Of a stretch of 64,000 nucleotides of DNA, positions 27,688 to 39,665 are shown one piece after another; position 1 is the stretch's first letter; each line of letters opens with the position of its first letter. The DNA is from Sedimentibacter saalensis (GTDB taxonomy: Bacteria; Bacillota; Clostridia; Tissierellales; Sedimentibacteraceae). The notes under the pieces were generated by a model, which worked only from the letters and a program-made list of their open reading frames with translations, did not search any database and was not told where the DNA came from. Made by a program: the position numbers and the translations under genes. Location of the stretch: the NCBI RefSeq assembly GCF_007830175.1, contig NZ_VLKH01000002.1, forward strand, positions 310,001-374,000, read 5' to 3'.

Positions 27688-29106
27688 CTAGAACCTTCTT
27701 CTCATTGATGAAGATGGTATCCTCATTTCATCCCTGTATTTTGCTACAGTCCTTCTTGATATGTTGATTCCTTCAGAGCTGAGCATTTCAGCTATTTTTT
27801 GATCACTTAACGGCTTTTGTGTGTTTTCTTCATTAATTAATTTTTGAATCTGAGACTTAACGCTGGTGGATGAAATTCCTTCGCCGTCACTTTCACTCAA
27901 GCTGCTTGCAAAAAAGTACTTAAGTTCAAACAACCCTATAGGAGTTTGCACGTATTTTCCGTTTGTAGCCCTGCTGACAGTTGACTCATGCACGCCTATG
28001 TCTTCAGCAACATCCTTGAGAACCAAAGGCTTCAAAGCAGTCTTACCTTCGTCAAAGAATTTTCTCTGGAACTTGAGTATGGATTCAACAACCTTGTACA
28101 GTGTCATCCTTCTTTGCTCTATACTCTTTATAAGCCACATAGATGAATTCAGTTTGTCGCTTAAAAACTTGTTTGCTTCTTTGTCATCAAGATTTTTTAT
28201 CATATTTTGATAATAGCCGCTTATAGTTAGAACAGGCAGGTTGTTGTCGTTTACTATAATTATATATTCACCGTTTATTTTTTCAATAGTCACATCAGGA
28301 ACAATATACCTTATGTTGTCGCTGTCTACTATGAATCCTCTAGATGGTTTTGGCTCAAGCATCTTGATTATATCGCAAATGCTTTGTACCCTTGAAACTG
28401 TAATACGAAGATCTTTTGCTATTTTTTGAATTTTGTTGGTAGCAATTTCCTCAAGATATTGTTCTGCTATTATATATGCATTTTTATCTTGAATTCCCTT
28501 TTCCTTAAGTTGAATCATAAGGCATTCACTTAAATTTCTTGCTCCAACTCCCACAGGGTCAAAAGTTTGTATAAGTCTTAAAACTCTTTCCACTTCAACC
28601 ACATCTTCATTAAGCAAAAGACTTATATCTTGAATTGAACACCCAAGGTATCCCTTGTTGTCAAGCGATTCAATAATAAATTCGCCTATTCTTTTTTCCT
28701 TATTAGTTTTTACGGAAACTCCTAATTGAACCATGAGATGGTCCTTAAGAGACATTTTTTTGGAAGTGTAGCTTTCAAATGTTTGCTTTTCATCAGAATC
28801 TGCAGTTTTTTCATAAGCCTTGTAGCTTAGGTCATCATATTTTTCTGTAATTTCCTTCCAATCGATTTCATCTTTGTTGTCAGATTTGTCAAAATCAGAT
28901 TTTTCATATTCAGCACGTTCATCTGATGATGATTCCTGGACTTTATTGTCAACTGATTCGAGAAAAGGATTAACCTCAAGCTGTTTGTATATAAACTCCA
29001 TTAATTCAACATTATTAAATTGCAAAATTTGTATAGCCTGTCTTAATTCAGGTGTCATAATAAGCTTTTGAGTCTGAGACAGATTCAATTCAAAGCCCAT
29101 TTTCAT
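27688..29106 (-). CDS. rpoN: RNA polymerase sigma-54 factor
   Basis: 472 residues: the N-terminal activator-interacting region with LNLSQTQKLIMTPELRQAIQILQ, an acidic region II (about 55-110), the core-binding domain, a helix-turn-helix with LVLKDVAEDIGVHESTVSRATNGKY, and the C-terminal RpoN box ISRRTVAKYRDEM (ARRTVAKYR consensus). The start at 29106 has AGGAGTGATATT upstream and lies after the promoter; the ATG at 29127 lies almost at the predicted transcript start. It serves the -24/-12 promoters and the three activators found in this window. It precedes cggR but has its own terminator. Confidence 0.96.
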   Translation of the reverse strand: MKMGFELNLSQTQKLIMTPELRQAIQILQFNNVELMEFIYKQLEVNPFLESVDNKVQESSSDERAEYEKSDFDKSDNKDEIDWKEITEKYDDLSYKAYEKTADSDEKQTFESYTSKKMSLKDHLMVQLGVSVKTNKEKRIGEFIIESLDNKGYLGCSIQDISLLLNEDVVEVERVLRLIQTFDPVGVGARNLSECLMIQLKEKGIQDKNAYIIAEQYLEEIATNKIQKIAKDLRITVSRVQSICDIIKMLEPKPSRGFIVDSDNIRYIVPDVTIEKINGEYIIIVNDNNLPVLTISGYYQNMIKNLDDKEANKFLSDKLNSSMWLIKSIEQRRMTLYKVVESILKFQRKFFDEGKTALKPLVLKDVAEDIGVHESTVSRATNGKYVQTPIGLFELKYFFASSLSESDGEGISSTSVKSQIQKLINEENTQKPLSDQKIAEMLSSEGINISRRTVAKYRDEMRIPSSSMRRRF

Positions 29107-29129
29107 AATATCACTCCTTGCTACCATAT

Positions 29130-29300: not shown

Positions 29301-29329
29301 TTGATTTTTAATACAAGACGGTATATACT
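29301..29329 (+). promoter_or_regulatory. sigma-A promoter of the riboswitch-ACT-UPF0210 operon
   Basis: TTGATT (29301-29306), 17-bp spacer and TATACT (29324-29329), ending about 60 bp before the glycine aptamer. Confidence 0.7.
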
Positions 29330-29385
29330 AACCCCTAATAAAATATTTTGGATGAAACTGGCAGAAGGCAGTCGACCGTCAGCGG

Positions 29386-29472
29386 ACATAACTCTGGAGA
29401 GACTCTTTAAGAGCACCGAAGGGGAAAGTTGATATCAATGAAACTCTCAGGTAAAAGAACAGAGCTGTAAAG
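29386..29472 (+). ncRNA. glycine riboswitch, single aptamer
   Basis: The conserved glycine aptamer words appear in order: CTCTGGAGAGACTC, GCACCGAAGGGGAAAG and AAACTCTCAGGTAAAAG-A-ACAGAG. CTCTG and CAGAG close the P1 stem. Only one full aptamer is present, unlike the tandem copy upstream of grdX. A terminator hairpin follows, so control is probably by transcription termination, with glycine favouring read-through as in other glycine riboswitches. Confidence 0.9.
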
Positions 29473-29496
29473 AAAACACATATGTGTTTTTGTTGT

Positions 29497-29525
29497 ACAG
29501 AGAGACGCCAGTCTCTCTGTATTTT
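29497..29525 (+). terminator. riboswitch expression-platform terminator
   Basis: ACAGAGAGAC / GTCTCTCTGT with a 4-nt loop, followed by ATTTTAT. The left arm resembles the P1 strand of the aptamer, so the two structures may compete. A second palindrome, AAAACACATATGTGTTTT, lies just before it. Confidence 0.7.
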
Positions 29526-29584
29526 ATATAACACCATTTTCCTTAAAGGCTGCATACATACTAACATTATAAACGGAGGATAAC

Positions 29585-29854
29585 ATGAAAGGCATACTGA
29601 CAATTATCGGAAAGGACCGTGTTGGAATAATAGCACATGTTTCAACACTTCTAGCAAGCTACAACGCAAATATCCTGGATATCAACCAGACAGTAATGAG
29701 AGATTACTTCACAATGATAATGCTTGTGGACCTTGATGGCATTACAACTGATTTTACAACACTTCAGCAGGAACTAGACAAAAAAGCCAAAGAAATCAAT
29801 ATGGAAATCAAAATTCAACGGGAAGATATTTTTGACAAAATGTACGAGGTATAG
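29585..29854 (+). CDS. ACT domain-containing protein (UPF0237 family)
   Basis: A single ACT domain of 89 residues starting [31 protein letters not shown] is the usual ligand-loop motif. ACT domains bind amino acids and regulate partner enzymes. It has a GGAGGATAAC ribosome site and ends 5 bp before the UPF0210 gene, a pairing widespread in bacteria. With a glycine riboswitch upstream, glycine or serine is a sensible ligand guess, but this is not shown. Confidence 0.9.
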
Positions 29855-29859
29855 ACGAA

Positions 29860-31218
29860 ATGATTAAATCTAAAAACATACTGGAAACAGTCAAAATGGT
29901 TGATGAGCTCAAATTTGACATAAGAACAATTACTATGGGCATTTCACTTCTTGACTGTGCAGATTCAGACGGTGAAAAATCAAGAATAAAAATATACGAT
30001 AAAATTGCAAGGTTATCCGAGCATTTTGTTGAAACTGTTGAAGCAACAGAAAAAGAATTCGGAATACCCATAATAAATAAAAGAATTTCAGTCACTCCAA
30101 TATCCATAATTGCAGGTTCAAGCAATGATGTTGACTATATCAAGTATGCCGAAATTTTAGACAAGGCTGCTGATGTGGCAGGAGTAAACTTTTTAGGAGG
30201 CTTTTCAGCCCTTGTTCACAAAGGATTTACCAAAGGCGATGAAATACTCATCCGTTCCATTCCTCAGGCTCTTGCTGTAACAAACAAAGTATGCGCATCA
30301 GTTAACGTTGCAACCACAAAGGCAGGCATTAACATGGATGCAGTAAGAATCATGGGTGAAGTTATTAAAGAAGCAGCATATCTTACAAGAGACAAGGACA
30401 GCATCGGATGTGCAAAATTAGTTGTGTTTGCTAATGCTGTTGAAGACAATCCTTTCATGGCAGGAGCATTTCACGGCACAGGAGAATCAGAAACATGCCT
30501 TAGCGTTGGAGTGAGCGGTCCAGGAGTAGTGAAAAATGCTTTGGAACAAGTAAGAGGTCAGGATTTCACAACCGTATGCGAGACAATCAAAAAGACTGCA
30601 TTTAAGATTACAAGAGCAGGTGAAGTAGTGGCAAAGGAAGTTTCAAGAAGACTTGACATTCCTTTCGGCATAATGGACTTATCACTTGCACCCACTCCGG
30701 AAGTCGGTGACAGTGTAGCAAGAATATTGGAAGAAATAGGTATAGAAGCTTGCGGAGCCCATGGAACCACAGCTGCTCTGGCATTATTAAACGATGCTGT
30801 TAAAAAAGGCGGCATCATGGCTTCTTCAAATGTAGGTGGATTAAGCGGAGCATTTATACCTGTAAGCGAGGATGAAGGAATGATTGAAGCTGTTAACAGA
30901 GGTTCATTAAACATCGAAAAGCTTGAAGCCATGACTTGTGTTTGTTCTGTAGGTCTTGACATGATTGCCATACCCGGAGACACAAAAGCAAGCACAATTT
31001 CAGCAATTATTGCCGATGAATGCGCTATAGGCGTTATAAACCAAAAATCAACAGCAGTTAGACTCATTCCTGTTTATGGCAAAACATTAGGAGATACAGC
31101 TGAATTTGGAGGACTTTTAGGAAGGGCTCCCATAATGAAGGTAAGCAGTTTTTCCAGTGATGACTTTATAGCAAGAGGCGGCAGAATTCCGGCACCAATT
31201 CATAGCTTTAAAAACTGA
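29860..31218 (+). CDS. PFL family protein, UPF0210 (DUF711)
   Basis: 452 residues. It contains [18 protein letters not shown] near the start, [41 protein letters not shown], and the C-terminal [21 protein letters not shown]. These match UPF0210/DUF711, which has a pyruvate-formate-lyase-like fold but lacks the glycyl-radical signature. Function is unknown. It forms an operon with the ACT protein behind a glycine riboswitch, suggesting a role in glycine- or one-carbon-linked metabolism. It converges with grdD through a shared terminator. Confidence 0.92.
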
Positions 31219-31253
31219 CAATAAAAAAAGCGGCTATTCCGCTTTTTTTATTG
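31219..31253. terminator. bidirectional terminator between the UPF0210 gene and grdD
   Basis: A 15-bp perfect stem CAATAAAAAAAGCGG / CCGCTTTTTTTATTG with a 5-nt loop. A-runs and T-runs on both sides allow use from either strand, ending the plus-strand operon and the grd operon. Confidence 0.9.
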
Positions 31254-31281
31254 TCATCCTGAGTGTAACGAAGGATCTCAT
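31253..31281. repeat. short REP-like element
   Basis: GTCATCCTGAG...CGAAGGATCTCA can fold into a hairpin. It shares GATCCTTCG and CTCAGGAT words with the duplicated element at 36183-36321. It is a common type of dispersed intergenic palindrome. Confidence 0.5.
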
Positions 31282-31293
31282 ATTTATATCCTG

Positions 31294-32463
31294 CTAGCAG
31301 CAGGTTTTTTCTTTTGCTATGAACTCATTGTCCTGAAGAACTTTAATTGCAGTTTCAGTGTTTGCTTCATTTACAAGAATTATTGGTCCTGTGCAGCCCA
31401 TTCCGCTTTCTGCATAAACATTGTTTTTCCAAAGAAGTTTTACAGCATCTTCAAGGTCCATTATTTCAATTCCTGAAATCTGGGAAGTCACAACTTCTTT
31501 CTTTGGAGCTTTCACTTCGTCCTCAGAAGATTTTTTTACCAATTTAGTTCCCTTCAGTATTTCAGTAAGATTTGCTTTGTGTGCCTTTTCAAATTCTTCT
31601 TTTGCAATGGCTTTTAAATTTCCTTTTACCAGTTCTCCGGCAAATTTCATGGCTCCTTCAACTAATGGGGCTCCTGAAGCTCTTGATATTATAAGTATGA
31701 GCTTGTCAAATCCTTCGCCGATTCCAGGACCGTATCCGTAGCCTAGTGACTCATAGTTTCCGCCAGCTGTGTAAGAAGAAAATATTTTAATCATAAGGTT
31801 TCCTGTTAAAGAATCCATTACCATAACATCAGCCGAACCCATGAGAAGGTCATTGCCTCTCATGACAGCACCGCCGTCTGCTCTTTGAGAAGCTGCAAAA
31901 TTTATGTCATATCCCTGTTCTTTTAATTTTGTCAGAGCTATTTCAGTTTGTCTTGCACCATCAACATTCAAAATACCAACAGTAGGATTTTTAATGCCGC
32001 ATGCTTTGGCAGTTATTATGCCATAAATGGCGTTCTTAACCATTCCTTCAACCTTGTCTGTAGAAGAAGTTCCTGTTGTTGTTGCAATGAACATTTCCTT
32101 TCCTTTTCCAGGTGTTACAATTCTTCCCACTGTTGATACTCCGATTGGGAATGGGTAATGCATTGTTACGCATGCATCTATTTCACCTTTGTCAAGAAGC
32201 TCTTCCATTTTTTTATGAGCCTGATCTTCATTTTCAACAAATGCAGTGGTTACGCCTTCAATTGTCTTGCTTCCTATGACTGTTGCATCGATACCGCCTT
32301 TAGCAGCCTTTGCTGCAGCTTGAAATATTGTTTGTTCGCCGTGCTCGCTTCCCATGGCAGTAACAGCAACGCGTGGTTTCTGTCCATATTCGCCACTTAT
32401 TAAAGTATCAGCCAGCTGGTTGAACACTTTGCCGATTATTTGATTTACTTGTTTTTCAGACAT
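31294..32463 (-). CDS. grdD: glycine/sarcosine/betaine reductase component C, alpha subunit
   Basis: 389 residues with a PlsX/phosphotransacetylase-like fold (TAMGSEHGEQTIFQAA, TTTGTSSTDKVEGMV, GYGYGPGIGEGFDKLILI). The C-terminal Cys in ESGMGCTGPIILV (about residue 357) corresponds to the Cys that carries the acetyl thioester in characterised GrdD. Component C turns the Se-carboxymethyl group on GrdA into acetyl phosphate. It ends the grd operon, 8 bp after grdC. The protein ends KTCC. Confidence 0.95.
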   Translation of the reverse strand: MSEKQVNQIIGKVFNQLADTLISGEYGQKPRVAVTAMGSEHGEQTIFQAAAKAAKGGIDATVIGSKTIEGVTTAFVENEDQAHKKMEELLDKGEIDACVTMHYPFPIGVSTVGRIVTPGKGKEMFIATTTGTSSTDKVEGMVKNAIYGIITAKACGIKNPTVGILNVDGARQTEIALTKLKEQGYDINFAASQRADGGAVMRGNDLLMGSADVMVMDSLTGNLMIKIFSSYTAGGNYESLGYGYGPGIGEGFDKLILIISRASGAPLVEGAMKFAGELVKGNLKAIAKEEFEKAHKANLTEILKGTKLVKKSSEDEVKAPKKEVVTSQISGIEIMDLEDAVKLLWKNNVYAESGMGCTGPIILVNEANTETAIKVLQDNEFIAKEKTCC

Positions 32464-32471
32464 ATGTCCTC

Positions 32472-34004
32472 CTATTCTGCCAGCAGATTTGAAGCAAAGC
32501 TTTTGAGTGCCTGAGCTATCAATTCTTTTACTTTGTCCTCAGAAACAGCGGATTTTTCTTCTTCCTTGCCTTTGTTAGCTTCAACGATAAATGATACTCC
32601 ATCAAACAGGTTTGTCATTCTTCCAAGGAACAAACTTCCCTTTCCAACTATCATGGCATTTTTGATTTTGCCGTCAAGAATGTCCTGTCTGCAGAATCCG
32701 ATGTATGGAACTCCTGATGGAATATGTCCTTGTGTTGGTGCCCAGCCTATCATACCATGCTTTTCAGTAAAGTCCTGGAGATCCTTCTTTTCTATGTCTC
32801 CCCTTTTAACTGCAAGAGCACCTATCATTTTGTAGTTTGCCAATGGAACATCTCCTGCTCCGGCAGGTTTAGTAACATCTGGATTTTGCATTTCAACAGA
32901 ATATTTATCAACATCTGTTATTTTCATTCCAGCCTTATCAAGAGAAGAAACAAGTGATGTTATAACAGCCTGTGGTGAAGAACCTGTTCCAACTGTATGT
33001 CTTCCTATAAGATCAAGATTTATTTCAGGATTTATTCCGTCATTTTCACTTACTAATACAGCAAATCCTCCAAGAACGTCTTCAAGAATAGGAAGACCCT
33101 TCTTTATATGGTCCTTGCCGTTCATTCCAAGTTTTGCAGTACTTCCGCCTGCAGACACAACAACATTTTTATAAACTCCTGCTTTTACTAATGCAGCAGC
33201 TTCAATTAATGCATGAGTAGGCCCTGCGCAGAACCCTCTTGTGTCTGAACCTGTGGCATTTACAAAGCCTGCCACTTCAGCACAAGCCTTTGCAAAATTA
33301 CCGCCGCCTCTTTGGTTCATATCTCCGCATGCTTCTTCGCAACAGTCAATAACGTAGTCAATTTCTTCCTTGTTAATATTGTTTTTTGCAACAAGGTTTA
33401 ATAATGCTAAAACGTTAGAAGCTTTTGAAACAAGATTTTCAAGCATTACATGAGCACTTAGGTTAATGTCAATATCATGGGCTCTTTTAACACAACCGAT
33501 TAATTCTCCGTTGTTGTATAAAGGTTCAGCATGTTCTTCATCAACATATTTTTTAACAACCTGAGCTTCTTCACCTTCGCTTATTCTGCTCATGAGACTT
33601 TCATCGAACAATGGATGTGAGGCAAGTTTTTCTTTAGTTGTTCCCAGGAAGTTTTTTTCAAGCTTAACTAGGTCAAACACATCGCACATCTGCATGAGTA
33701 CTATAAACTCATCCTGAGGCATTATTTCGCCGTATTTTCCGAATCTTCCAAAACCTTCAGCTTCCTTGTCATTCCAAGGTTGTTCATATTTTGCAAGCTC
33801 TTCGGGATGAATATTTCCTATATATGTCTGGTTAGGCAGGTATTTTACAACCTGTTCAAAAGTTCTCAAATGGTCTTTTATTTGTTTTAAATATTCTGAA
33901 TTGGGATTTACTGTTCTTTCTGTTGTCTGGGTAGTTCCGTTATGAATTACCATATCAGGCGCAAACGCAAGAATGTAACTTGCACCTCTTATTACACTGT
34001 TCAT
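32472..34004 (-). CDS. grdC: glycine/sarcosine/betaine reductase component C, beta subunit
   Basis: 510 residues resembling ketoacyl synthase III/thiolase-like proteins. The start MNSVIRGASYILAFAPDMVIHNGTTQ, the middle CCEEACGDMNQRGGGNFAKACAEVAGF and DTRGFCAGPTHALIEAAALVKAGV, and the end block QGHIPSGVPYIGFCRQDIL are typical of GrdC. It works with GrdD to release acetyl phosphate. A 189-bp gap with two hairpins separates it from grdA. Confidence 0.96.
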   Translation of the reverse strand: MNSVIRGASYILAFAPDMVIHNGTTQTTERTVNPNSEYLKQIKDHLRTFEQVVKYLPNQTYIGNIHPEELAKYEQPWNDKEAEGFGRFGKYGEIMPQDEFIVLMQMCDVFDLVKLEKNFLGTTKEKLASHPLFDESLMSRISEGEEAQVVKKYVDEEHAEPLYNNGELIGCVKRAHDIDINLSAHVMLENLVSKASNVLALLNLVAKNNINKEEIDYVIDCCEEACGDMNQRGGGNFAKACAEVAGFVNATGSDTRGFCAGPTHALIEAAALVKAGVYKNVVVSAGGSTAKLGMNGKDHIKKGLPILEDVLGGFAVLVSENDGINPEINLDLIGRHTVGTGSSPQAVITSLVSSLDKAGMKITDVDKYSVEMQNPDVTKPAGAGDVPLANYKMIGALAVKRGDIEKKDLQDFTEKHGMIGWAPTQGHIPSGVPYIGFCRQDILDGKIKNAMIVGKGSLFLGRMTNLFDGVSFIVEANKGKEEEKSAVSEDKVKELIAQALKSFASNLLAE

Positions 34005-34049
34005 ATATTACCTCCGCAATTTTTTTAAATTTAAAATACAAGGTATAAA

Positions 34050-34082
34050 GTTTAACTAGGAATTTAAACCCTAGACTTTATA
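34050..34082 (-). promoter_or_regulatory. hairpin in the grdA-grdC gap
   Basis: Imperfect inverted repeat with arms ATAAAGT and CTAGG/CCTAG between grdA and grdC. It could protect the upstream mRNA or form part of a grdC leader. Confidence 0.4.
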
Positions 34083-34106
34083 CTTCAAATTATGTGTAAA
34101 AAGTTT

Positions 34107-34140
34107 AAAATTTGCTTCGCATTTCTGCGAAGCAAATTTT
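34107..34140 (-). terminator. strong hairpin after grdA (partial terminator or mRNA stabiliser)
   Basis: A perfect 15-bp stem AAAATTTGCTTCGCA / TGCGAAGCAAATTTT with a 4-nt loop, followed on the minus strand by AAACTTTTTACAC. The T-run is short and displaced, so read-through into grdC is likely. Confidence 0.6.
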
Positions 34141-34193
34141 CATGATAAATTAATATTCTATATAATAGAAATTAACAAATCAACTATAATCGA

Positions 34194-34667
34194 CTACAGA
34201 TATTTGCAAAAATCTTCTCTGATAGGAGTCATTTCGCTGATGATGTCATCAACATCTAATACCATTTCCATCATGCTTATTTGTTCGTCATAAACTGATT
34301 CGTCAACTTCGTTTTTAATTTCTGGTTCACATACATGAAATACACTGAGTCCTAACTGAACTCCTGTCAATGGACCGGCAAATGTAGGGTCTCCGTTTGT
34401 TACAGTTTCTGCAGCAAGACCTGCTGCTTCACCTTCAGCTGCTCCAAGCACTACTACTAAATTTTCAGCACCGTACTTTTCAGCAAATTCTTTAACCCTT
34501 TTTTGATTTTCCAAATCCATTGCGCCTGCGGAAGTTCAGACGAAGCATTCAGTTGATGAAAATACAACTTCAGCTCCGGCAGTTTTAACACATTCTTCAA
34601 TTGCCGGTCCTGGTATTCCATCCCTGTCGCCTATTATAATAACTTTCTTACCATTCAATAAGCTCAT
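34194..34667 (-). CDS. grdA: glycine reductase component A, selenoprotein GrdA
   Basis: 157 residues if the in-frame TGA at 34536-34538 is read as selenocysteine. The N-terminal part [20 protein letters not shown] joins the C-terminal part through ...[29 protein letters not shown] is the GrdA signature, with Sec at residue 44. Simple ORF calling stops at the TGA and finds only the last 108 residues from an internal ATG. The start has AGGAGGAATTAAA upstream. GrdA carries the carboxymethyl-selenoether intermediate between components B and C and is re-reduced by thioredoxin, whose gene lies 35 bp upstream. Confidence 0.97.
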
Positions 34668-34702
34668 TTTAATTCCTCCTTTGTTATTTTTTATGTTTGA
34701 CC

Positions 34703-35020
34703 TTATATATATTTTTGAATCATTGCTTCTATATTTTCAGGAGTGGCATCTTCTTTAATAAGTTCTTCCACTTTTTCTCCGTCCTTATACATTGCAATGA
34801 CAGGCAAACCCAATACTTTTTGTCCAATGGCAACTCTTCTTGCCTTTGTAGTGTTTAATTTTGTAAATTTCAGCTTGTCGCCGTATTTTTCTGACAATTC
34901 CATTACATGCGGCATCAAAGCTTCGCATGGTGCACAACCGTCTCCGAAGAAATCAACCAGTATGTATCCTTGTCCTTGAAGAACTTCTTCATCAAAATTT
35001 GTTTTATCCAGTACTAACAT
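34703..35020 (-). CDS. trxA: thioredoxin with atypical active site
   Basis: 105 residues of thioredoxin fold. The active site is [12 protein letters not shown]: the two Cys are kept, but the usual WCGPC becomes GCAPC. A similar change (GCVPC) is known for the thioredoxin linked to glycine reductase in Eubacterium acidaminophilum. The cis-Pro region [18 protein letters not shown] is present. It transfers electrons from TrxB to GrdA. It is placed between trxB and grdA with a TATAGGAGGC ribosome site. Confidence 0.96.
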
Positions 35021-35029
35021 GAAAGCCTC

Positions 35030-35965
35030 CTATAAAGTTTCAATATATTTTTCTGCCTGAACAGCTGCAATGGCACCATCTGCTGCTGCAGTAACCACTT
35101 GTCTCAGACTTTTAACTCTGATATCTCCGGCTGCATAAACGCCTTCAATATTTGTCTTCATATTTTCATCAGTCACTATGTAACCCTTATCGATATTTAA
35201 AATACCTTCATACAGTTTAGTCTTAGGTTCATAACCTATGAATACGAAAATTCCAAATGTTCCGTCATCTTCGTCGGCTACTACTTCTGTAATCTCTCCT
35301 GTTTTAACATTTTCCAATACCATGGAGTTTACAATACCATCACCTTTAATTTCCTTAACAACAGAATCCCATATGAAATTCATTTTAGGATTAGCCATGG
35401 CTTTTTCTCTTATTGACTTAGCTGCTCTTAATTCATCTCTTCTGTGAATGATGGATACTTTTCTTGCAAACTTTGTCAAATACATTGCTTCTTCAACTGC
35501 AGTATCTCCGCCGCCAACTACAAACACTTCGAAGTCTTCAAAGAAAGCTCCGTCACATGTGGCACAGTATGAAACTCCCTTGCCTGTGAAAGTTTTTTCT
35601 CCAGGGCAGCCGATTGGTTTTGAGGAGGCTCCGCCGGCTATTATAACTGTCTTGCCTGTATACTCGCCTTTTTTGCCTACCAGCACCTTTTCCTTGCCTT
35701 CAAGTTTTACTTCAACTATTTCATCATATACTTTTTCAGCTCCAAAATGCTTTGCCTGTTCAGCCATACGATCTACCAATGTAGGACCTGATTCACCTTC
35801 CAAGCATCCAGGGTAATTTTCAACTTCAGATGTGAGAACTATTTGTCCACCGTCTTTTTCTTTTTCAATAATCAAAGTACTAAGTCTGGCTCTTCCGGCA
35901 TAAACACCTGCTGACAAACCAGCTGGTCCTGCGCCGATTATTATAACATCATATACTTTGCCCAT
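35030..35965 (-). CDS. trxB: thioredoxin reductase
   Basis: 311 residues: N-terminal FAD motif IIGAGPAGLSAGVYAGRA, the redox motif CATCDGAFF (about 135-143), a second nucleotide motif VVGGGDTAVEEAMYL, and the C-terminal FAD motif GVYAAGDIRVKSLRQVVTA. The ATG at 35965 has AGAGGTGTAAA upstream; the longer reading from 36043 adds 26 residues with no ribosome site. It reduces the adjacent thioredoxin for the glycine reductase system. Confidence 0.96.
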   Translation of the reverse strand: MGKVYDVIIIGAGPAGLSAGVYAGRARLSTLIIEKEKDGGQIVLTSEVENYPGCLEGESGPTLVDRMAEQAKHFGAEKVYDEIVEVKLEGKEKVLVGKKGEYTGKTVIIAGGASSKPIGCPGEKTFTGKGVSYCATCDGAFFEDFEVFVVGGGDTAVEEAMYLTKFARKVSIIHRRDELRAAKSIREKAMANPKMNFIWDSVVKEIKGDGIVNSMVLENVKTGEITEVVADEDDGTFGIFVFIGYEPKTKLYEGILNIDKGYIVTDENMKTNIEGVYAAGDIRVKSLRQVVTAAADGAIAAVQAEKYIETL

Positions 35966-35991
35966 TTTACACCTCTTTCCTATAGTCACTG

Positions 35992-36019
35992 ATATCATAT
36001 TTAATAAAAAATATGATAT
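35992..36019. promoter_or_regulatory. palindrome upstream of trxB
   Basis: Perfect 11-bp inverted repeat ATATCATATTT / AAATATGATAT with a 6-nt centre, 27 bp upstream of the trxB start. Possible operator or leader hairpin for the second half of the grd operon. Confidence 0.45.
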
Positions 36020-36061
36020 ATAATTATTGAAAATTGTTTCCAATATTCAATAATTATATTT

Positions 36062-36086
36062 GTTCGCGGCAATTGCTGCCGCGAAC
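36062..36086. repeat. GC-rich hairpin between grdB and trxB
   Basis: GTTCGCGGC / GCCGCGAAC with a 7-nt loop, in an otherwise AT-rich gap. It lacks a T-run on either side and resembles an intergenic palindromic repeat. Confidence 0.5.
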
Positions 36087-36182
36087 TAAAACTGAAATAT
36101 TTACTAATCTGTCGCCAGTACGGGACACAGATTATGATACCCAAAAAACACTGCCTAAAAACTATCATTTTTGAAACAATTC

Positions 36183-36321
36183 GAGATCCTTCGCTGCCGC
36201 TCAGGATAAGCGACTGACACCAAATCGAAGATTTGGGTCATCTGCTTTTCAAACATGAGATCCTTCGCTGCCGCTCAGGATAAGCGACTGACACCAAATC
36301 GAAGATTTGGGTCATCTGCTT
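36183..36321. repeat. two 65-bp direct repeats between grdB and trxB
   Basis: Two copies (36183-36247 and 36257-36321) start GAGATCCTTCGCTGCC, continue CTCAGGATAAGCGACTGACA and end TTTGGGTCATCTGCTT, with 9 bp between. I see no difference between the copies. Each contains hairpins (GATCCT/AGGAT and CAAATC/GATTTG). The second copy reaches into the grdB stop codon. This is a dispersed palindromic element inserted inside the grd operon and duplicated. Confidence 0.85.
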
Positions 36322-37624
36322 ACTTTTCGAATACTGTTTGTTCTGTAACTTCAGTTTCTAATGCTCTTAATGCTCTTCCTACTAAGTTTCTTCTGATGTC
36401 TCTTTCTTCTTCAAGAGTCAATGAAGGATTTCCAAGAGGGTGAGGAATTGCTATAGTAGGAACTATTCTGTTAGCTCCAACTGTCAAAGATATAGGAACT
36501 ATTGTGCACATATGTACAACAGGAATTCCTGCTCTTTCTATTTCTTTTACCATCGTTGCGCCGCAACGAGTGCAGGTGCCTCAGGTTGATGTCAGTATAA
36601 CTGCGTCAACTCCGTCAGCTTTAAGTTCCTGTGCGAATTTTGCAGCAAAAGCTTTTGCACTCTTAACAGCTGTACCGTTACCAACTGTAGTATAGAAATA
36701 TCTGTGCAAACTTCCGATTTTACCTTGTTTTTCAAATTCTCGAAGGATGTCAACAGGGAGTACTCTGTCAGGATCTAAATTTGCATATACAGGGTCATAT
36801 CCTCCGTGAGCAGTTTCATATGTTGCTTCTGTTAAATCCATTACACCATCAATGTCGTATTTTCCGTATTTTGAAGCACTTGATGATTCAATGTGATCAG
36901 GGTTTCCTTTAGGAACAATACCGCCGGAAGTAACCAAAGCAATTTTTGCTTTTGTAATGTCTTTTACAGCAGGATTAGGTGCTACTCTGTCAAAGTCAGG
37001 CATTGGGAATTCTGTTTCAAATTCTTTGTCTGCTAATTTGTTCAAAAGCATCTTAACTGCTCTTTTTGATCCTCTTTCAGTATCAAAGAAGTTCTTTCTG
37101 ATTCCGTTTGGCATGTAGCCTTCTTCAGAAGAAGCTCCTATTTTTTCACCTTTTGCAAGCTTTAATGCAAGAGGAGCCATTTTCTTAACTGCATCACGCA
37201 TACCTGCTGCTGAATTCTTTGTGGAAACAACATACAGACTTGTTTTGAACATGTCAGCTCCAGGATTTTCTTTGTACATACCTGTTAAAACAGGAATGTT
37301 CAATTGATCTTTAACTGCTTTTGCAATAGTACCGCATGCAACGCCATATCTTCCTGCATTAAATGCCGGACCTGCAATAAATAAATCTGGTTGTAATTCT
37401 TTAACCATGTTTATGATAGTTTTTTGTGCTTCTTCCATGTTTTCGTTGAAATAAGAGTCTCCACACACAATTGTAGCAACAATTTGTGCTTCATCTCCGA
37501 ATGCCTGCTGGAAAGCTAATCCAGGTCCTACATTGCCTTCTCTTAATTCAGCTGGAATGTGAGCCATTTCTTCTCCGCCTACATTGGCAAAGAATTGGTT
37601 TATATAATGAACAACTTTTAGCAT
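36320..37624 (-). CDS. grdB: glycine reductase component B, selenoprotein GrdB
   Basis: 434 residues when the in-frame TGA at 36581-36583 is read as selenocysteine (residue 348). The region reads ...VDAVILTSTU followed by GTCTRCGATMVKEIERAG, the UxxCxxC motif of GrdB. The frame stays open on both sides and the C-terminal part IPVVHMCTIVPISLTVGANRIVP is intact, so it is not a broken gene. The ATG at 37624 has GGAGGAGATAATT upstream. GrdB is the 47-kDa substrate-specific subunit; with the pyruvoyl GrdE fragments it binds glycine as a Schiff base and passes the carboxymethyl group to GrdA. Confidence 0.97.
36554..36568 (-). promoter_or_regulatory. candidate SECIS hairpin in grdB
   Basis: On the minus strand CGTTGC-GGC-GCAACG forms a 6-bp stem 12 nt downstream of the UGA. 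Bacterial SECIS elements lie within the coding region just after the UGA and present a short apical loop with G residues to SelB, so position and shape fit. Confidence 0.55.
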
Positions 37625-37640
37625 AATTATCTCCTCCTTC

Positions 37641-38921
37641 CTATCTCGCACTCAATTTGTTGAAGCCCATTTCATTTGTAGCTCCTGTAATAACCTGCAG
37701 CTCAGCAGTTATGCTTCCGTCAGCATGGAGACTGCCGTCAAAACCACCGGCAATTACATCAGCAACTTCAACGTGGCCAATTATTTTGTCCATAGGTGGA
37801 AGTTCAATTACCTCATTGGCATTTCCGCCTGTTACAACTGCATTTGCTCTTACGTCAGCATCTGCAAGAGATTGTGATGTGCCGTCTCTTCCTGCATACT
37901 CATCTGTAATAAGAACAGTCTTAATGCCTTTGTTTTCAATTTTCTTGCAGTTCATTATAAGGTCAGTGTCAGGATTTCCGAAACCTTCTTCTGATACTAT
38001 AACACCATCTACTCCAAGATACTCAGCAAGCTTAGCACTCCAGTTTGATGATCTTTCTTTGTCTGCAAGGTATACATTTTCATTTGTGATTATAACACCA
38101 ACAAAGTTCAATGTTTTTCCATGCTCAGCAAATAAGTCATGAACAACAGGATTGTTCAAGTGGTGATAAGTAGTGTTTTTATCGCATGCAGATACGCAGT
38201 TACCGCTTACTATAGCGCCGTCCATCATTTCTGTAGGATAAATCAATGTAGATATAGTCTGCTTAGCATCAACGCCATATACATATGTGTCATGCATCAA
38301 GCCCTGGCTTTGAAGCATGCATACATAAGCAACTCTTGGCAATTCAGGATACATTTTAATTCCTTCTACCAGTGTAGGAGTTTCAAATGTATCAACCTGA
38401 TCAGGAGTCATGTTCTTAGCAAGTTCTCCAAGATACATAGCTACTTTGTATCCTGCAAATCTTAAAGCTTTTTCATGTTCGTGCTGTTTCAGTGATTCGA
38501 TTGGTTCGCAAACCAATACTAAATTATTTGTTTGTGAAAATGGTGTGTACTCAGCGCCAGGACCAGTCATATCGATAATACCTTCCTGGAACCCAACGAT
38601 CTTACCTGTTGTTATAACAGCAGCACCCTTTAAAACGTTTGTTTTGCCTGAACCAACAGTTTCAACTTTGCTTACCATACCTGGGAATATTCCTCCAGGT
38701 CCTTCAACCTTTACTCTCGGTTCAATAACGTCTTTAACAGGCATTATACGAACGCTTTCTCCTGGTTTTGCAAGCTCAACATCAGCTGACTTGAAATTCT
38801 GATCTTCTAGAATTATCGCTTTAACTTCTTCTTTGTTAACATACAATGTGCCGTTTTCTACTTTGGATTTTTCAGCAAACTGAATATCCTTAATAAAAAT
38901 GTAGCCTAATTCTAACTTCAA
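37641..38921 (-). CDS. grdE: glycine reductase component B proprotein GrdE
   Basis: 426 residues if started at the TTG at 38921, which has GGAGGTGAA upstream. The ATG at 38936 used by naive calling contains that Shine-Dalgarno site and is unlikely. With the TTG start, the conserved cleavage Cys in SGNCVSACDKNTTYHHLNNP falls at residue 242, as reported for characterised GrdE. The proprotein is cut before this Cys to give two subunits, the larger carrying a pyruvoyl cofactor. It lies 16 bp upstream of grdB. Confidence 0.95.
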   Translation of the reverse strand: MKLELGYIFIKDIQFAEKSKVENGTLYVNKEEVKAIILEDQNFKSADVELAKPGESVRIMPVKDVIEPRVKVEGPGGIFPGMVSKVETVGSGKTNVLKGAAVITTGKIVGFQEGIIDMTGPGAEYTPFSQTNNLVLVCEPIESLKQHEHEKALRFAGYKVAMYLGELAKNMTPDQVDTFETPTLVEGIKMYPELPRVAYVCMLQSQGLMHDTYVYGVDAKQTISTLIYPTEMMDGAIVSGNCVSACDKNTTYHHLNNPVVHDLFAEHGKTLNFVGVIITNENVYLADKERSSNWSAKLAEYLGVDGVIVSEEGFGNPDTDLIMNCKKIENKGIKTVLITDEYAGRDGTSQSLADADVRANAVVTGGNANEVIELPPMDKIIGHVEVADVIAGGFDGSLHADGSITAELQVITGATNEMGFNKLSAR

Positions 38922-38952
38922 ACCGTTCACCTCCATAAATTTTTGCTCGTGT

Positions 38953-39312
38953 TTATATATTTAACGCGCTTTCAAGCACTGTTAAATCAATTAATTTAAA
39001 ATCTTCTGTTATCTGATCTGTCATCATGCCAAATTTGTGTTTGCTGAAATTATCATAGGTCATTATGGAATTTTCTATTATGTACAGCGAATCTAAATTC
39101 AAGCTTCTTTTATCGTCGGAAATCATAACAGATTTAAATGGTGTTTCATTTGGTTTTACACTGCTGGACAGAGGATGTGTCAGAAGCTCATGACCCTCAT
39201 GAATCTTGTCCCTGGTTTTAACCAATACATCCTTGAAACCGCCTTGAACAAATATGATGTTTGTTTTATCCTTGTACTTGTCATAAACCTTTTCATTGTT
39301 TGTAATAATCAT
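38953..39312 (-). CDS. grdX: GrdX family protein
   Basis: 119 residues from the ATG at 39312 (AGGTGG upstream), starting MIITNNEKVYDKYKDK. A GTG three codons earlier overlaps the ribosome site. The block LVKTRDKIHEGHELLTHPLSSSVKPNETPFKSV is typical of GrdX, a small protein at the head of glycine reductase operons with no assigned function. First gene after the tandem glycine riboswitch. Confidence 0.9.
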   Translation of the reverse strand: MIITNNEKVYDKYKDKTNIIFVQGGFKDVLVKTRDKIHEGHELLTHPLSSSVKPNETPFKSVMISDDKRSLNLDSLYIIENSIMTYDNFSKHKFGMMTDQITEDFKLIDLTVLESALNI

Positions 39313-39425
39313 TATTCCCACCTGTTATTTACTTATACTTTTTTTATAAGAAACTAATCGTATGTATTTTGTGCACTAAAAATAAAAATAAACGTTATTT
39401 CACAGATTAATTAAAATTTAAAATT

Positions 39426-39466: not shown

Positions 39467-39640
39467 TCTGTTTTATAACCTGAGAGTTTCCCCTTACGAG
39501 TTGCCCCTTCGGTGCCTGCGCTTTTCAGAGTTTTGTCAGCTTACGGTCCTTCTGCCTGAGATCATCATCAATAATATGGCTAATATTAATTTACTTACTC
39601 CTTCGGCGCTGTTAATAACATAACAGTCTCTCCCGCAAAC
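39465..39640 (-). ncRNA. tandem glycine riboswitch of the grd operon
   Basis: Two glycine aptamers follow each other on the minus strand. Aptamer I has GCGGGAGAGACTG, GCGCCGAAGGAG and TCTCAGGCAGAAGGACCG. Aptamer II has ACTCTGAAAAGCGC, GGCACCGAAGGGGCAA and AAACTCTCAGGTTATAAAACAGAG. Both carry the GCxCCGAAGG and CTCAGG cores. The tandem sits between a sigma-A promoter and a terminator, upstream of grdX, and should switch on glycine reductase when glycine is plentiful. Confidence 0.96.
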
Positions 39641-39665
39641 GTCATTCAATTATTCACTTAGATTT

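Follow-up and report, generated by a model that had tools for sequence, protein, structure and literature searches.

The window analysed here is a 64,000 nt stretch of the Sedimentibacter saalensis genome (assembly GCF_007830175.1, contig NZ_VLKH01000002.1, positions 310,001–374,000, forward strand). The region 29301–31218 encodes an ACT-domain protein (UPF0237) and a UPF0210 protein, and the initial annotation had placed a promoter, a glycine aptamer and a terminator directly before this pair. Pattern scanning, RF00504 and the protein family models confirmed that arrangement (Table 1), and the UPF0210 protein also matches PF05167 (643.1 bits, cut-off 25). The TATACT −10 element is invariant across 11 aligned leaders, including that of the window. 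The aptamer had been described as single, which holds in part: one ligand-binding aptamer is predicted, but a remnant of a first aptamer precedes it.

Table 1. Features of the ACT–UPF0210 locus and the convergent glycine reductase operon (window coordinates).
Feature	Position	Strand	Basis
Sigma-70-type promoter-like sequence (TTGATT-17-TATACT)	29301–29329	+	Pattern scan, 9/12 consensus matches
5′ ghost of a first aptamer, starting GGAUGAA (29350–29356)	29350–29383	+	Kept in relatives
Glycine riboswitch aptamer, RF00504	29384–29472	+	70.0 bits, gathering score 32
AT-rich hairpin between aptamer and terminator	29473–29490	+	Sequence; predicted in minimum-free-energy folds
Terminator-like hairpin of the leader (putative intrinsic terminator)	29495–29522	+	Hairpin scan, arm complementarities
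ACT-domain protein (UPF0237), 89 aa	29585–29854	+	NF001220, 119.3 bits, cut-off 74
UPF0210/DUF711 protein, 452 aa, homologue of SP0239 (PDB 2HA9)	29860–31218	+	NF003700, 749.1 bits, cut-off 440
Terminator-like, near-palindromic hairpin between convergent operons	31216–31256	found on −
Glycine reductase operon, grdX to GrdD	31294–39321	−	Models; thioredoxin genes named by eye from translations
Glycine riboswitch of the grd operon	39534–39645	−	57.5 bits

The last grd gene ends at 31294 on the minus strand, so that the grd and ACT–UPF0210 units lie tail-to-tail, as had been annotated. The hairpin between them is near-palindromic and may therefore serve both strands. GrdA (34194–34520, minus strand) and GrdB (36320–37651, minus strand) are each split by an in-frame TGA in table 11, and a SECIS_4 match at 36543–36580 (62.9 bits) marks the selenocysteine of GrdB. 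On the other side, a sigma-54 gene (27688–29127, minus strand) is divergent from the ACT–UPF0210 operon, with a glycolytic operon next on the same strand. The AT-rich hairpin that follows the aptamer carries a short T run and could act as a site of pausing or as an initial, weak terminator; relatives (L001, L099–L111) are AT-rich at the equivalent position.

The association of the glycine aptamer with UPF0210 extends well beyond this strain. In the GTDB family of S. saalensis, UPF0210 is found in 12 of 27 genomes, and all twelve have a same-strand aptamer no more than about 700 nt ahead of the gene. The genome of S. saalensis itself carries only five glycine-aptamer matches in 3.83 Mb, representing four leaders (those of ACT–UPF0210, grd and gcvT, and a tandem preceding agcS), so a linkage in 12/12 genomes is more than would be expected by chance. 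Across the order, UPF0210 scored over the cut-off in 93 of 249 genomes. Outside one large family (f12), the aptamer is directly upstream in 24 of the 27 UPF0210 genomes. Two of the exceptions (G029 and G230) have no aptamer upstream of UPF0210, and in the third (G033) the gene and an aptamer are on two contigs, apparently at contig edges. Within f12, 66 genomes have UPF0210 but any glycine aptamer was found in only three of them, the order-wide search having been run with stricter filters that can miss weak aptamers. Neither glycine RNA was present in ten of ten UPF0210 leaders sampled from f12, two of which come from the three aptamer-bearing genomes.

More distant loci give lower frequencies. 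Among the matches listed at class level, an aptamer was found in 5 of 67 hand-picked UPF0210 loci and neither RNA in the other 62 leaders. The best 80 named loci by closeness of protein sequence include seven with an aptamer. In Clostridiaceae, where 80 loci were hand-picked for genus spread among the 136 positive genomes listed, 18 leaders have the aptamer, ten have a T-box in its place and 52 have neither. The counts from the named-locus, class and Clostridiaceae samples overlap and are not to be summed (apparently identical loci: L286/L009, L267/L028, L313/L011, L292/L010 and L131/L007). The expectation that the linkage would recur in other Clostridia is thus borne out, both in the order outside f12 and in Clostridiaceae. 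Glycine control of the pair, as first proposed, is upheld by two RNA classes in several clades, but not by the 52 Clostridiaceae leaders and the f12 leaders that have neither. The glycine link is general in several clades but is not universal.

The gene pair itself is far more constant than its leader. An ACT gene match was present in the 0.7–1.5 kb piece upstream of UPF0210 at 160 of 160 loci; where the spacing was read, some 50 nt separate the two genes. No other conserved neighbour stood out in the 80 named loci, where the ACT cluster occurred in 60 and the next-largest cluster in only 12, at scattered positions; UPF0210 was not returned by ORF calling in nine of these loci, making neighbour positions there unreliable. 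In two Clostridiaceae genomes (G659, contig C32; G661, contig C89) the UPF0210 match is broken up by in-frame stops, and the gene therefore seems to be decaying. Genome G295 has two UPF0210 loci, and in one of them (L135) a TwoAYGGAY RNA (53.9 bits, threshold 43) was found at positions 545–701, on the minus strand and opposite to the nearby UPF0210 gene.

The T-boxes that take the place of the aptamer in Clostridiaceae are of the glycine type. Two of the ten T-box leaders carry them in tandem, giving 12 T-boxes by a regular expression for the core; three of these were also scored by Rfam, via the named loci L009 and L028 of the same genomes, and the other nine were identified by the expression only. 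The specifier is GGA, GGG or GGC in ten by pattern, and GGA by eye in L262 (where the pattern gave ATG instead of the specifier) and L311 (no pattern match). Further matches lay off the specifier position: TTT in L285, L286 and L310, and GTA in L267. The acceptor bulge is TGGA in 12/12. Weak matches to the expression in L068, L078, L177, L180 and L194 were discarded, being supported by neither Rfam nor the model.

The decoding was compared with the 29 T-boxes of S. saalensis. In eight of them a codon could be read where expected, and in the other 21 none was; seven of the eight agree with the gene that follows (ileS, valS, acetolactate synthase, glyS, tyrS, metS and thrS), while the eighth is AAC, before an aspartate–tRNA ligase. 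A pheST T-box in L068, itself named by eye, was missed by the pattern and reads UUC by eye. Bulges in S. saalensis are TGGA only before cysK, glyS and thrS and TGGC before serS; another 21 have TGGT, and 4/29 gave no core match. This distribution is as expected from tRNA discriminator bases. A GGN specifier and a TGGA bulge, read together, identify glycine as the amino acid of the T-boxes before ACT–UPF0210.

T-boxes turn their genes on when the amino acid is scarce. They are described as antiterminating on uncharged tRNA (excerpts of PMC11477304), so the T-box species should express ACT–UPF0210 under glycine shortage. Genus g303 combines two T-box leaders with a single aptamer leader, so the glycine sensor has been swapped at one site. 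Clostridioides difficile CD1564 likewise has a T-box before an ACT-domain gene (PMC11477304), a parallel drawn at the level of the ACT domain only; the excerpts of that paper list three glycine riboswitches for C. difficile, none of them before UPF0210.

The sign of the riboswitch was judged from the architecture of the linked leaders. These number 40, reduced to 38 for the ghost motif (L131 and L292 repeat L007 and L010), to 37 for pairing of the aptamer core (L105 is near-identical to L104) and to 32 for P1 pairing and structure sampling (L101 and L290 had terminators that looked wrong; L032, L278 and L280 closely resemble leaders that were retained); none of these comparisons includes L279 or L313. 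A GGANGAR motif occurs no more than 75 nt upstream of the aptamer in 24/38 UPF0210-linked leaders, compared to 1/11 grd leaders, and the motif as searched is absent from the other 14. The GGAUGAA element also precedes the intact agcS tandem of S. saalensis. In the sections of PMC6944388 bearing on this point, type-2 singletons resemble the second aptamer of transport-type glycine riboswitches, and the transport type represses while the cleavage type activates.

In the UPF0210-linked leaders the terminator lies beyond P1, and since the sequence of the P1 3′ strand recurs in the terminator 5′ arm, the P1 5′ strand can pair with either. A Watson–Crick run of at least 5 between the P1 5′ strand and the terminator 5′ arm is found in 18/32 leaders, and the observed mean complementarity was reached in 1 of 5000 arm swaps and 0 of 5000 letter shuffles, the leaders being related and not independent. 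The two elements vary together: CTCTGG occurs with CCAGAG, CCCTTG with CAAGGG in genus g300, and GCCTCTGG with CCAGAGGC in L010. A 9-nt run (G-U allowed) between the aptamer core and the terminator 3′ arm is present in 18/37 linked leaders and in 0/12 grd-type, 0/2 gcvT and 0/3 agcS leaders. In the agcS controls, which are expected to be OFF switches, the P1/5′-arm runs are just 2–3 and the core/3′-arm runs just 5–8 nt. The leader terminator of ACT–UPF0210 in the window has both complementarities, with 9 nt between its 3′ arm and the aptamer core and 5 nt between its 5′ arm and the P1 5′ strand.

Boltzmann sampling of the 32 leaders gave a clear switching contrast only in L276 and L011; a few others differed slightly in the same direction, and P1 was never sampled in 13/32. 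In the leader of the window the terminator forms with or without P1.

The leaders of grd operons are built differently. In those of L125 and L117, read by eye, a degenerate second aptamer continues into the terminator, as expected for an ON switch, and by analogy with these two relatives the grd riboswitch of the window is likely of the ON type. The UPF0210-linked riboswitch, on the evidence of its architecture, is very probably an importer-like (OFF) switch and not one of the grd or gcvT kind. That glycine instead induces the pair through an ON switch, aiding glycine catabolism or detoxification with the convergent grd operon, is quite unlikely. Such a role would fit the adjoining operons of the window, the occurrence of both aptamers about 10 kb apart on opposite strands in five of the twelve UPF0210 genomes of the family (G000, G002, G009, G010 and G024), and the description of gcvT and grd glycine riboswitches as ON (excerpts of PMC11477304). 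However, the glycine T-boxes at the same site in relatives imply expression at low glycine, and the terminator of the linked leaders is separate from P1 yet complementary to it, unlike those of L125 and L117. The role shared with grd that the neighbourhood had suggested is therefore not supported; leader architecture and T-boxes together suggest that ACT–UPF0210 would be on when glycine is scarce, opposite in sign to grd.

Considered by itself, the riboswitch is ordinary in kind. It has the RF00504 score over the gathering threshold and the ghost that define its likeness to type-2 singletons with a 5′ ghost, and its aptamer resembles the second aptamer of the agcS tandem in the same genome. 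The singletons and tandems covered in the excerpts of PMC6944388 belong to glycine-cleavage and transport contexts, while the singleton of the window precedes ACT–UPF0210 instead. The glycine-GGAnGA class (RF03166) likewise has GGAUGAA before a single aptamer, and one linked leader (L193) matches it at 53 bits, but this is below its gathering score of 110, and the best match of the window is RF00504. The grd, gcvT and agcS riboswitches of S. saalensis belong to the same aptamer family, and it is the degenerate second aptamer running into the terminator that sets grd leaders apart from the ACT–UPF0210 leader. COG4198 is named behind single-aptamer glycine riboswitches of Firmicutes in the relevant part of PMC2211319. 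ACT–UPF0210 as a member of the glycine regulon, with a sign, was not found in the literature searched, and an earlier listing in a supplementary regulon table is possible.

The pair had been called widespread but without an assigned role. Of 393 genomes sampled from the class, 269 have a UPF0210 match, and the literature searched names no function for it. UPF0210 (COG2848) also matched in 5 of 14 control genomes, including those of Corynebacterium glutamicum, Lactococcus lactis and three archaea. The two proteins are related in sequence and fold to SP0239 (PDB 2HA9, structure released 2006) and to the SP0238-type ACT protein (PDB 1ZPV), neither of which has a function in the literature searched. 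The predicted model of UPF0210 (pLDDT 88.3) has 2HA9 as its best structural match (Z 54.5), followed by ribonucleotide reductase chains (Z 13–16 over 319–364 residues), and its predicted fold is a ten-stranded beta/alpha barrel of the ribonucleotide reductase/PFL superfamily. The pertinent section of PMC4390871 describes this relation to ribonucleotide reductase, and its authors found that SP0239 lacks a candidate radical glycine. Across 81 aligned UPF0210 sequences, many polar residues reach at least 97.5% conservation, and the near-invariant ones include D20, R22, K186, D196, H205, E209, R252, D273, C362, R401 and R439, suggesting that UPF0210 is an enzyme. Against the PurU and GcvR models the ACT protein scores weakly, from which we infer glycine or serine to be its likeliest ligand.

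It could be that glycine merely signals the amino-acid state of the cell and that the job of the pair is unrelated to the glycine pool. The fold shared with ribonucleotide reductase would agree with this, and with ACT as the sole conserved neighbour a pathway context is absent, but a glycine-centred role is the simpler account of a site occupied by two independent RNA sensors, both specific for glycine, and a signal-only function is considered unlikely.

The distribution of serine hydroxymethyltransferase (SHMT) bears on what a glycine-centred role might be. An SHMT match at 1e-50 is absent from 61 of 249 genomes of the order, 59 of them in f12, where the gene seems to have been lost repeatedly. 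UPF0210 is present in 42/61 order genomes without SHMT, compared to 51/188 with it. This association is tied to phylogeny (genus-stratified p 0.016) and is carried by one genus, g20, in which UPF0210 occurs in 17/19 SHMT-lacking and 5/12 SHMT-bearing genomes (p 0.012). All 42 SHMT-lacking UPF0210 genomes belong to f12, the family whose sampled UPF0210 leaders are without a glycine RNA. UPF0210 does not need SHMT, and this independence fits a separate way to supply or spare glycine, although, with f12 leaders lacking a glycine RNA, it supports that role only indirectly.

It also bears on a one-carbon role like that of PurU, in which the pair, off with glycine, would free tetrahydrofolate so that SHMT makes more glycine. 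The weak PurU scores of the ACT protein point that way, as might the lack of a PurU match over the cut-off in all 249 genomes of the order, except that PurU is absent both with and without UPF0210; its absence is thus not discriminating, and its co-occurrence was set aside as a functional clue. SHMT gave no match at 1e-50 in 42 of the order's 93 UPF0210-bearing genomes, so the pair cannot act there purely in support of SHMT, and the PurU-like role appears very unlikely. Threonine aldolase co-occurrence by PF01212 was also rejected, the family being too broad (matches in 249/249 genomes).

The explanation we prefer is that the leader is a glycine-binding OFF riboswitch that would act through transcription attenuation. 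At low glycine, the P1 5′ strand and the aptamer core would be free to bind the two arms of the hairpin that follows, giving antitermination, and ACT–UPF0210 would be made; with glycine bound, P1 would close, the hairpin would be freed as a terminator and the operon would be off. ACT–UPF0210 would then take part, as a glycine importer does, in the response to glycine shortage, whereas the adjoining grd operon serves glycine catabolism. The ACT protein would most likely sense glycine (or serine) and tune UPF0210, which would be an enzyme adding to the glycine pool or sparing it. Taken as a whole, from OFF switch to an ACT sensor tuning a UPF0210 enzyme, this explanation is probable. A bolder version is possible but doubtful: that ACT–UPF0210 is an unrecognised, SHMT-independent system for supplying or sparing glycine, built on a non-glycyl-radical enzyme of the ribonucleotide reductase/PFL-barrel type, with feedback through a glycine-binding ACT protein and control by two unrelated glycine-sensing RNAs.

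An amino-acid-specific regulatory link that comes with a sign, and in two RNA classes, leads to the testable claim that the pair is needed when glycine is short, and so a widespread protein pair gains a specific, testable physiological condition. The two glycine riboswitches of the window, apparently opposite in sign and placed on convergent operons, form a natural pair for studying how one ligand may give two outputs.
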